NCBI RefSeq assembly: GCF_036010665.1
Contig: NZ_CP108581.1
Location: 1,084,001-1,148,000 of the forward strand
Direction of reading: 5' to 3'
DNA: 64,000 bases
Source of the DNA: Microbispora sp. NBC_01189
Lineage (GTDB): Bacteria > Actinomycetota > Actinomycetes > Streptosporangiales > Streptosporangiaceae
Numbering within the stretch: position 1 is the first letter of the stretch; the number at the start of each line of letters is the position of its first letter. Shown piece after piece: positions 22,570 through 28,805 of this stretch. The translations under genes and the position numbers were made by a program. The notes below the pieces were generated by a model that saw only the letters and a list, made by a program, of their open reading frames with translations, did not search any database and was not told where the DNA came from.

Positions 22570-23922
22570 TCAGCCGACCTCCACGCTTTCCAGGACGCCG
22601 AGGGCGTCGGGCACCAGCACCGCCACGGAGTGATAGGTGGTCACGAGGTAGGAGATGATCGCCTTGTCGTCGATGCCGGTGAAGCGCACCGACAGCCCGG
22701 GCTCGTACTCGTCCGCCAGCCCGGTGCGGCGCAGCCCGACGACCCCCTGTTTCTCGGTTCCGGTGCGCATCACCAGGATCGAGGTGAGCCCGCGGTCACT
22801 GACGGGGATCTTGTCGCAGGGCAGGATCGGGACTCCCCGCCACGCCATGACCTTCGCGCCGCCGGCCTCGGTGACGTCCGGATACAGACTCCGGGCGGTG
22901 CACTGGCGGCCGAAGGCGGCGATGGCGCGGGGATGGGCCAGGAAGTAGTGCGAGCTGCGCCGGCGGGCCAGCAGTTCGTCGAGGTCGTCGGGGGTGGGCG
23001 GGCCCGACCGGGTGTGGATGCGCTGCTTGAGATCGGCGTTGTGCAACAACCCGAAGTCGCGGTTGTTGACCAGCTCGTGCTCCTGCCGCTCCCGCAACGC
23101 CTCGATCGTCAGCCGCAACTGCTGCTCGGTCTGGTTCATCGGCTCGTTGTACAGATCCGCCACCCGCGAATGCACCCGCAGAATCGTCTGCGCCACACTC
23201 AGCTCATACTCACGCGGCCCCAGCTCGTAGTCCACGAACGTCCCCGGCAGCGTCGCCTCACCCACATGCCCCGCCGCCAGCGCGATCTCCGCCTCCCCGT
23301 ACCGGTTCGCCGGACGGCCGGCCGCGGGGCGGTCCAGCTGCTCCCGCAGGCTGCCGGAGCGCTCGGCCAGCTCGTCGACCACCGGCCGTCCGAGCACGAG
23401 CACGATGCAACGGGTGAGCGCCCTGGCGGGGACCGCCGCCGGGCCGGTGAGATCCCCGAGGTGGTCCCCGCCGGCGACGACCCGGAGCAGCGTCTCGCCG
23501 CCGTACCCGCCGACGCCGACACAGGCGATCTTGCCGTGGGCGACCAGGACCACCTGACCGGCGGGCACCGGTTCGTCCGGGTCCAGCTCGTGCTGCATGA
23601 ACAGGCCCGCCAGGGCGGCCAGCACGTCCGCGTCGGCGTACCCGTGCAATGACGGCAGTTCGCACAACTCGGCCGGGATCACCCGCACCTCGGCCCCGGT
23701 CGAGACGAACGTCACCCGCCCGTCCCCCGGGGTGTAGGTCAACCGCCGGTTGACCCGGTAGGCCCCGCCCTGGACGTCGATCCACGGGAGCACCCGCAGC
23801 AGGTGGCGAGGGGTGATCTCGTGCATCTGCGGCGGGGTCTTGGTGGTGGTCGCCAGGGTGCGCGCGGCCCTGGTGCTCAGCGCCAGCCGCGACGCGCCGT
23901 CCGGCCCGGGCGGCGCGCTCAC
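22570..23922 (-). CDS. Family 2B encapsulin shell protein, second copy (EshA/MMPI-like)
   Basis: This is a 450-residue protein from the GTG at 23922, which overlaps the geosmin synthase stop as GTGA. It belongs to the EshA/major-membrane-protein-I group, now recognised as family 2B encapsulins: an HK97-type shell fold with a cyclic-nucleotide-binding-like insertion. The N-terminal [20 protein letters not shown] and C-terminal [17 protein letters not shown] are shared with the paralogue at 26141-27541. The insertion (about residues 80-200) is clearly more diverged than in the paralogue, with gaps around the nucleotide-pocket region. A 332-base segment (22969-23300) is identical to the paralogue. 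It is the last gene of the geosmin operon and probably co-assembles with the other shell protein. Confidence 0.88.
22969..23300 (-). repeat. 332-bp segment identical between the two encapsulin genes (copy 1)
   Basis: By eye, this stretch matches 26543-26874 base for base, including synonymous sites, while the sequence on both sides diverges sharply. It encodes the shell segment around [20 protein letters not shown]. The pattern fits recent gene conversion. Confidence 0.9.
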
Positions 23923-27732: not shown

Positions 27733-28805
27733 CGGACGCGACGCGTGAGCCGCTCGGTGAGCACCGTGAGCGCCTCGGCCGCCTCCGGCCTGATCGGGCA
27801 GTCGCCCAGCGCCGCGAGCGCCTGGCCGGTCCGCTGGGTGATCAGCTCCTCGACCCGGTCGAGCGCGCCGGTGTCCACGATGATCCGCCGCAGCTCCGCC
27901 GCGCGCGCCTCGTCCAGGGCGGGATCGCCGTGCCAGGTGCGCAGCAGGTCCCGTTCCGGCCCGCGGGCCCGCGCGGAGGCGTACGCCATGAGCACGGTCC
28001 GTTTTCCCTCGCGCAGGTCGTCGAGGACGGGTTTGCCGGTGACAGCAGGGTCGCCGAAGACCCCGAGGACGTCGTCGCGCAGCTGGAACGCCTCCCCCAG
28101 CGGCAGGCCGAACCGGGAGTAGGCCTCCAGCAGGCTCGGCGGGGCACCGGCGAGCGCCGCGCCGATCTGCAGCGGGCGCTCCACCGTGTAGCGCGCCGTC
28201 TTGTACCGGATCACCGTGAGCGCCTGTTCGACCCCGTCGTCCCCTCGCGCGTGCGCCAGGAGGTCGAGGTACTGACCGGTGACGACCTCGGTGCGCATGC
28301 GGTTGAAGAGGTCGCGGGCCGCGCGGGCCCGCACGTCGTCGGGACCGGCGTCCGCGAGCAGTTCCTCGGCCCAGGCCTGGGCGAGCACGCCCAGGAGGAT
28401 CGCCGCGGACTGGCCGAACTGCTCGGCCGCGCCGAACCGCTCCGGCCGCGCGAGCCCCCGGTGGATGGTGGGACGTCCCCGGCGCAGCTCGCTGCCGTCC
28501 ATGAGGTCGTCGTGGATGAGGAGACCGGCGTGGTAGAGCTCCAGCGCCGCGCCGGTGGCAACAACCGCCGCCTCGCGAAGCTCTTCACCGCCGGCCCCCC
28601 GCCAGCCCCAGTAACACAGCAGAGGACGGACCCGCTTGCCACCCTTGACCACGAACTCACGCAGCAGGCGGTATCCATCGGCCACGTCGTGGTCGCCGAC
28701 CGGAGGGCGCCGCGCGTCGAGGAAGTCGGACAGCAGTTCGTCGACACGTCTCCGGACCCGGCCGGTGATGCCGGTGATGGACGTGTCCACGATCTCCGCC
28801 GTCAT
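27729..28805 (-). CDS. Polyprenyl diphosphate synthase (FPP/GGPP synthase family)
   Basis: This is a 358-residue trans-prenyltransferase. The first aspartate-rich motif is HDDLMDGSELRRGRP and the second is LRDDVLGVFGD. KGGKRVRPLL supplies the isopentenyl diphosphate site. A strong Shine-Dalgarno (GAGGAGG) precedes the ATG. It is the first gene of the encapsulin operon. Farnesyl diphosphate is the substrate of geosmin synthase, so supply of that precursor is the likely job. The product length (C15 or C20) cannot be read with certainty. Polyprenyl synthases are a known family 2B encapsulin cargo class, but no long disordered arm is fused here; the small downstream ORF may matter. Confidence 0.9.
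   Translation of the reverse strand: MTAEIVDTSITGITGRVRRRVDELLSDFLDARRPPVGDHDVADGYRLLREFVVKGGKRVRPLLCYWGWRGAGGEELREAAVVATGAALELYHAGLLIHDDLMDGSELRRGRPTIHRGLARPERFGAAEQFGQSAAILLGVLAQAWAEELLADAGPDDVRARAARDLFNRMRTEVVTGQYLDLLAHARGDDGVEQALTVIRYKTARYTVERPLQIGAALAGAPPSLLEAYSRFGLPLGEAFQLRDDVLGVFGDPAVTGKPVLDDLREGKRTVLMAYASARARGPERDLLRTWHGDPALDEARAAELRRIIVDTGALDRVEELITQRTGQALAALGDCPIRPEAAEALTVLTERLTRRVR

Follow-up and report, generated by a model that had tools for sequence, protein, structure and literature searches.

A geosmin synthase gene in a two-shell Family 2B encapsulin operon of Microbispora, and shell-gene co-occurrence and conversion among its relatives

Introduction

Is geosmin made inside a protein shell? 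Geosmin, the microbial odorant known best and a problem for water quality, is commonly presented as made by a single free bifunctional enzyme, on whose two domains the two steps of its synthesis take place. In a 64,000-nucleotide stretch of the genome of Microbispora sp. NBC_01189 (contig NZ_CP108581.1, positions 1,084,001 to 1,148,000; here called the window), the gene for a geosmin synthase (GS) lies between the genes for two encapsulin shell proteins, Enc1 and Enc2, in an operon headed by a polyprenyl diphosphate synthase gene (PT). The best reading of this operon is that it specifies an encapsulated geosmin synthase.

Family 2 encapsulins have been tied to terpene cyclases before. Andreas and Giessen divided the associated cyclases into 2-methylisoborneol synthase-like and GS-like enzymes, and counted cyclases in 904 Family 2B operons, and a cyclase together with a PT in 165 systems (PMC8346489). 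There, PT is itself a type of Family 2B cargo, with a disordered extension of 50–100 residues, and motifs of the GPTGLGTSAAR type, in the linker and at the C-terminus of putative GS-like cargo, are proposed as targeting signals. Dutcher et al. described 503 two-component operons in 2025, terpene cyclase/PT (TC/PT) types included, in which the cyclase can sit between Enc1 and Enc2 (PMC12407261). Co-assembly of Enc1 and Enc2 from Streptomyces lydicus was shown experimentally in that study; Enc1 alone does not assemble, and a candidate cargo site is seen in diagnostic motif 2. Synteny of geosmin synthase with two cyclic nucleoside monophosphate (cNMP)-domain genes (geoA-cnb-cnb) was described in 2020 (PMC7251104), and encapsulins were reported in 2025 from all geosmin clusters of myxobacteria analysed (PMC12224551). 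The operon was first noticed in a sequence-only reading of the window. A premise of novelty fails, as GS-like Family 2B operons have been in print since 2021 (PMC8346489) and two-shell TC/PT operons since 2025 (PMC12407261).

Results

The operon is encoded on the minus strand in the order PT, Enc1, GS, Enc2 (5′ to 3′) and spans positions 22570–28805, the interval that the sequence-only reading had given (Table 1). Its central statements, a complete GS flanked by two Family 2B shell genes and a polyprenyl diphosphate synthase at the head, are borne out by coordinates and family models. It had also described overlaps of 1 to 4 bases throughout. This is true of the Enc1 stop and GS start, which share one base (TGATG), and of the GS end and Enc2 start, which share four (GTGA), but 187 bp separate PT from Enc1. 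Similarly, the interval holds four genes rather than the five it counted, although an IclR-type regulator gene next to Enc2 could be the fifth. The genome is a single contig of 7.37 Mb with no second full geosmin synthase and no second full Family 2B shell, and it has five PF00348 matches, PT included. Among the loci found, the closest named relatives belong to Microbispora species, the GS being 97% identical to that of M. amethystogenes.

Table 1. Features of the operon and its regulator gene, in window coordinates.
Feature	Position	Strand	Description
PT	27729..28805	-	Polyprenyl (farnesyl/geranylgeranyl-type) diphosphate synthase, 358 aa; first operon gene; PF00348, 177.8 bits
Enc1	26141..27541	-	Family 2B encapsulin shell protein, 466 aa; GTG start; NF041163, 760 bits (cut-off 400)
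cNMP-binding-like domain (CBD) inserted in Enc1	26942..27202	-	PF00027, residues 114-200, 61.5 bits, above cut-off
Gene-conversion tract in Enc1	26543..26874	-	332 bp identical to Enc2; longest exact shared run; stops just before the Enc1/Enc2 diagnostic motif
GS	23919..26141	-	Bifunctional germacradienol/geosmin synthase, 740 aa; ATG start
C-terminal GPTGLGT motif of GS	24021..24041	-	Residues 701-707; proposed encapsulin-targeting motif (role from PMC8346489)
Enc2	22570..23922	-	Family 2B encapsulin shell protein, 450 aa; GTG start; NF041163, 689.6 bits (cut-off 400)
Shortened CBD of Enc2	23359..23565	-	PF00027, 22.3 bits, below cut-off 27.5; without phosphate-binding cassette
Gene-conversion tract in Enc2	22969..23300	-	332 bp identical to Enc1
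IclR-family regulator	21564..22463	-	299 aa; next gene after Enc2; PF01614/PF09339 above cut-offs

GS matches PF19086 in two stretches, corresponding to two class I terpene cyclase domains, and its N-terminal domain scores 466.8 bits against 5dz2, the solved N-terminal domain of a germacradienol/geosmin synthase. Four metal-binding motifs are intact: DDHFLE (residue 84), NDLFSYERE (224), DDYYP (445) and NDLFSYRKE (588). By homology, the predicted product is geosmin, formed from farnesyl diphosphate (FPP).

We considered a 2-methylisoborneol (2-MIB) cluster and rejected it, as the sequence-only reading had done. The 15 region proteins scanned, two of them without a family match, include no methyltransferase, and thus no geranyl diphosphate (GPP) methyltransferase, and no single-domain cyclase. 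In contrast, locus L271 (2358-6789) encodes a shell, a 2-MIB synthase-type cyclase, a GPP methyltransferase and an isopentenyl diphosphate (IPP) isomerase. Encapsulation of 2-MIB synthesis has reportedly been described. Elsewhere in the Microbispora genome, outside the window, one stretch resembles a single-domain terpene cyclase and contains one in-frame TGA (G000:C1:689297-690268).

To place the operon among its relatives, GS was identified at E ≤ 1e-180 in 148 of 200 genomes of the order (164 had some match, of which 16 weaker ones were removed), and 140 of the 148 neighbourhoods were fetched. In 67 of these 140, GS has a shell gene within 5 kb on its own strand. There is none within that distance in the other 73, five of which are within 3 kb of a contig end; adjacency is therefore not needed. 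The 67 comprise 31 loci with a shell gene on each side of GS, 25 with two upstream, 10 with one upstream and one with one downstream. GS between two shells is therefore more than a chance arrangement. The linkage is thus not confined to one strain, a point on which the sequence-only reading had proposed a survey, and we reject the idea of a single-strain oddity: 14 of 15 loci in the window's own genus have GS between two shells. The exception, in genome G165 (L131), is a distant GS (55% identity) that has no neighbouring shell; that genome also carries an unlinked single shell (G165:C11:167470-168819), which has the highest score in the order sample among the matches listed. Two upstream shells are usual in genus g6 (18 of 24), and GS sits between shells in the named Nonomuraea loci L021-L023.

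Two further genes follow the shell-linked form of the cluster. A relative of PT occurs within 5 kb of GS in 54 of the 67 shell-adjacent loci and a relative of the IclR gene within 7 kb in 23 of them, versus none of the other 73 in either case; both genes therefore belong with the shell-linked form. At two loci from other genera whose positions were inspected (L159 and L255), the IclR relative is upstream of PT and divergent from it. The IclR gene is likely the regulator of the cluster, and it is plausible that PT serves as GS's own prenyl donor, as the sequence-only reading had suggested; the product of PT is a prediction, its best NCBIfam scores, 308.9 for GFPPS_Mycobact and 281.9 for f2_encap_cargo4, both being below cut-off. 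In another genome (G153), a shell gene stands divergent from an IclR relative, with no geosmin synthase match within the stretch (L273:2677-5375); this may be what is left of a geosmin cluster that was lost.

GS and shell genes also go together at the level of whole genomes. In the order, a Family 2B shell is found at E ≤ 1e-100 in 143 of 148 GS genomes versus 24 of 52 GS-lacking ones. The five exceptions carry pieces of shell genes, beside GS in G140 and G161 and as fragments in G010, G030 and G171 (only 41 residues in the last). Because this re-check for fragments covered the five GS genomes and four Streptomyces genomes without one of the two genes, leaving out the GS-lacking genomes of order and class, the enlarged count of 148/148 is biased towards association. 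In the class (296 genomes, E ≤ 1e-80), 66 of 67 GS genomes have a shell, the CBD-less one of G217 included, and the miss is again G010; the corresponding figure for GS-lacking genomes is 16 of 229, with 10 of the 16 matches 2A-like by score and matched range. Among 199 Streptomyces genomes (E ≤ 1e-80) the counts are 195 of 196 and 1 of 3. The one miss, G563, is an assembly of ~1420 contigs with a CRP-like match only, and CRP-like matches are likewise all that the two shell-less GS-lacking genomes contain. With overlaps removed, the three samples hold 384 distinct GS genomes, of which 378 have a Family 2-type shell, or 383 when contig fragments are counted, relatedness being uncorrected. No earlier report of this co-occurrence was found in the literature searched, outside which most subscription papers lie.

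The genes of a co-occurring pair can be far apart. Among the matches listed, GS adjoins a shell in at least four Streptomyces genomes (G509, G550, G638, G655), and lies 1.0–5.5 Mb from it in 11 picked genomes with a single shell match on the same contig (G472, G485, G522, G531, G546, G556, G589, G629, G630, G631, G632). A comparison within mixed genera, in which some species have GS and others lack it (g2, g6, g11, g13, g18, g26), gives a shell in 62 of 62 GS-plus genomes, fragments included, versus 23 of 32 GS-minus ones (p 2.6e-5); minus g2, it gives 53 of 53 versus 2 of 10 (p 1.2e-8). Both p values ignore relatedness, and the contrast is weakened by the linkage of the genes in g6, g13 and g26, where a single deletion could remove GS and shell together. 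Eight shell-less and GS-less order genomes that have no listed genus label fall outside this count. Genus g2 supplies 21 of the 24 shell-bearing GS-lacking genomes of the order, and 21 of its 22 listed GS-lacking genomes have a shell. In the one such genome examined (G027), the shell belongs to the 2-MIB operon of L271.

The proposed targeting motif was sought in 137 of the 140 fetched GS, those that could be parsed. A GLGT-type motif is present near the C-terminus in 129 and in the linker in 84. All 14 shell-linked GS of the window's genus keep the C-terminal copy and lack the linker copy.

Among solved structures, those nearest to the two shell proteins come from the 2B shell of S. griseus and the two-component Enc1/Enc2 shell of S. 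lydicus. In the alignment, the diagnostic A-domain sites read TVWK in Enc1 and RRRS in Enc2, compared with TVWK and, for S. lydicus Enc2, RRRK in the reference (PMC12407261). Both proteins carry the CBD that Family 2B shells have inserted in the E-loop, and they differ in it. AlphaFold models of the whole shell proteins are poor (mean pLDDT, the predicted local confidence score, 55 and 57; shallow alignments), and therefore only the CBD part was used. In the Enc1 model the phosphate-binding site holds a helix, H165-168 (block pLDDT 78-94, residues 81-210). In Enc2 the CBD is modelled as folded, with no helix at that site (block pLDDT 69-88, residues 81-200), and the model resembles both 2B shells and CRP-type domains. 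In alignment A1, the Enc2 sequences of Microbispora, Planomonospora and N. typhae share a deletion of a short loop and the phosphate-binding cassette. For the CBDs of 2B shells, it is reported that they do not bind cyclic nucleotides (PMC12407261); in the window's clade, that of Enc2 may be only a lid over the pore. In a different family of the class, G217 has a GS directly followed by a shell gene (2B model 422.6 bits) without a cNMP-like domain (L270:6465-9730), which suggests that this domain is dispensable.

One segment of the two shell genes has a history of its own. In Microbispora, the tract (residues 222-333) has a mean nucleotide distance of 0.008 to the operon partner versus 0.026 to the nearest orthologue, and in the other four segments the relation is reversed (0.196, 0.400, 0.331 and 0.081 to the partner versus 0.034, 0.067, 0.038 and 0.038). 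The own operon partner is the nearest sequence for 21 of 22 Microbispora shell genes in the tract, and for 0 of 22 in each other segment. Across 30 loci of our own choosing, out of 80 listed two-shell pairs (duplicates included), it is nearest for 43 of 60 genes in the tract versus 6, 2, 1 and 6 of 60 elsewhere; L236, with one intact shell, was skipped, and L025 was dropped as a duplicate of L200 (zero distance). Third-position identity in the tract, per 25 columns, is 1.00, 1.00, 1.00 and 0.96 between the window's Enc1 and Enc2, compared with 0.96, 0.96, 0.96 and 0.76 between the window and the same gene of L120, and 0.96-1.00 for the very close L119. On these identities, and on the fading of the own-partner signal outside the tract, ordinary conservation of a shared segment is rejected. 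Gene conversion thus holds one segment of the shell genes nearly identical, a process for which no report in encapsulin shells was found in the literature searched, where the one paper listed deals with giant viruses. As judged from the fold, the tract would correspond to subunit contacts of the P-domain.

The extent and place of the conversion vary. There is little in the tandem pairs of genus g6, where the longest shared runs are 17-40 bp, compared with 46 and 91 bp at two g6 loci that have GS between the shells. Tandem shell pairs of genus g2 have exact shared runs near the gene start, of 383 bp in L081/L175 (Nocardiopsis) and 297 bp in L134, and these appear to mark a second site of conversion. 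Shell genes that look broken in M. triticiradicis (L009, the same locus as L128/G140) were considered as a real loss. We reject this in favour of a collapse during short-read assembly, the most likely cause: each gene lacks some 256 bp of the near-identical tract at the corresponding position (L009:9516 and L009:12833-12835), the pattern that such a collapse would produce. Two-shell operons may consequently be undercounted in short-read genomes.

Around the operon, the flanking genes encode a Fic/DOC protein, two pirins, a MarR regulator, a CBS protein, a capsule-synthesis-like protein, a sulfotransferase and a histidine kinase. Ten flanking open reading frames were scanned, and two of them gave no family match. 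The Fic/DOC-family gene (29228-29617) lies upstream of the operon on the opposite strand. In the plasmid collection there are two partial matches, with 73-77% identity.

Discussion

From the genes, their order, domains, motifs and conservation, we infer, with a probability of roughly 80%, that GS is held by its C-terminal tail within a mixed Enc1/Enc2 shell fed by PT. Enc1 and Enc2 would co-assemble into a single mixed, T=1-like shell of the HK97 fold, in which the GPTGLGT tail would retain GS. PT would make a prenyl diphosphate, probably FPP, although the FPP could also come from the cell pool. FPP would enter via pores and be converted to germacradienol by the N-terminal domain of GS; the crowded C-terminal domain would then recapture this volatile intermediate and turn it into geosmin, which would diffuse out. 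The IclR gene probably controls the operon.

Several points weigh against this reading. Among the strongest are the literature and the enzyme itself. The sequence-only reading had doubted that any geosmin encapsulin has been characterised experimentally, and the doubt stands: none was found in the literature searched, nor any experiment placing a geosmin synthase inside a shell. The S. coelicolor enzyme is reported to make geosmin in vitro without a shell, which is therefore not required for catalysis. Many GS loci of the order, as noted above, have no shell gene within 5 kb. As for targeting, the window GS has no linker motif, and the C-terminal motif is only slightly less common in GS that lack a shell nearby (66 of 73) than in GS that have one (63 of 64), and is therefore not a marker of adjacency. 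Its presence in unlinked GS fits loading in trans, and equally a role unrelated to shells. The family models are not fully reached either. GS scores 1101 bits over residues 3-711 against NF041168 (f2_encap_cargo3), whose curated cut-off is 1200; this cut-off is strict for these actinomycetes, since only 23 of 200 order genomes pass it. PT, for its part, is below the curated cut-off of 450 for NF041169 (f2_encap_cargo4, PT cargo), and is therefore termed an associated gene rather than cargo. Lastly, in the TC/PT type PT is placed directly downstream of Enc2 (a description rather than a strict definition; PMC12407261), whereas in the window it precedes Enc1.

The alternative that survives best concerns the wider pattern and leaves the operon unaffected. 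The co-occurrence of GS and shell could be mere phylogeny, with unlinked shells serving 2-MIB, prenyl or xylulose kinase cargo; we give this only slightly less than an even chance. Both genes are common in large-genome sporulating actinomycetes, nearly all Streptomyces sampled have both, with only three GS-lacking genomes for contrast, and close to half of the GS-lacking order genomes have a 2B shell, mostly in g2, where the one examined proved to be a 2-MIB operon. The mixed genera speak against it, most clearly when g2 is set aside, as does the class sample, where shells are rare among GS-lacking genomes. A second possibility, that GS and shells are merely co-inherited or co-expressed, the shells enclosing PT or another enzyme and GS remaining free in the cytosol, is unlikely. 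PT is a published Family 2B cargo type (PMC8346489) and the first gene of the operon, and over half of the GS loci have no shell close by. However, the Pfam domain of PT starts at residue 47, which leaves little space for the extension of PT cargo, and it is GS whose frame overlaps both shell genes. Streptomyces GS and shells, moreover, co-occur though often megabases apart among the matches listed, and at L271 the GS-less shell accompanies another odorant cyclase. We consider it very improbable that Enc1 and Enc2 each build a shell of their own, with different contents: their A-domain segment (0.331) and CBDs (0.400) have strongly diverged in Microbispora and diagnostic motif 2 may be a site for cargo (PMC12407261), but S. 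lydicus Enc1 assembles only when mixed with Enc2 (PMC12407261), and the homogenised segment spans the presumed subunit contacts, as expected if the two proteins must fit.

It is tempting to extend the encapsulated geosmin synthase beyond this operon. GS may generally dwell in a shell in actinomycetes, loaded in trans where unlinked, as in many Streptomyces, with paired shells kept compatible by recurrent conversion while their outer domains and cargo-facing sites diverge; this proposal is tentative, and we would not quite bet on it. If GS does work in a shell in general, this bears on the retention of germacradienol. The shell might then help to explain why the enzyme expressed in E. coli is stated to give germacradienol and germacrenes, not geosmin (PMC7251104). 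The conversion pattern, in turn, bears on how a two-protein shell stays competent for co-assembly. A shell-dwelling GS is directly testable in laboratory Streptomyces.

How does the operon compare with known systems? With the GS-like Family 2B operons (PMC8346489) it shares a two-domain cyclase beside 2B shells, a C-terminal GPTGLGT-type motif and a polyprenyl synthase. It differs in the missing linker motif, and unlinked shells are not treated in the parts of that paper available to us. Like S. lydicus Enc1/Enc2 (PMC12407261; PDB 9bje, 9bix), it has TVWK in Enc1 and an RRR site in Enc2; the S. lydicus operon is a putative xylulose-kinase one, whereas the window has a shortened Enc2 CBD and a homogenised segment, and the words "gene conversion" are absent from the main text of PMC12407261. 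The cyclase between Enc1 and Enc2 is shared with the TC/PT type of the same paper. As in the geoA-cnb-cnb clusters (PMC7251104; PMC12224551), the geosmin synthase adjoins two cNMP-domain shell genes, but the cyanobacterial and deltaproteobacterial scheme puts GS ahead of the two cnb genes, whereas here it lies between the shells with PT in front. GS is also between the shells in Sorangium (L078). With 2-MIB encapsulin operons (L271; S. griseus 2B shell, PDB 9bhu), the window has in common a 2B shell and an odorant terpene cyclase; their single-domain cyclase, GPP methyltransferase and IPP isomerase have no counterpart among the window proteins scanned. The operon type is thus already known, and what is added here is the genome-wide co-occurrence, the gene conversion between shell genes, and the loss of the Enc2 cassette and the GS linker motif in the window's clade.

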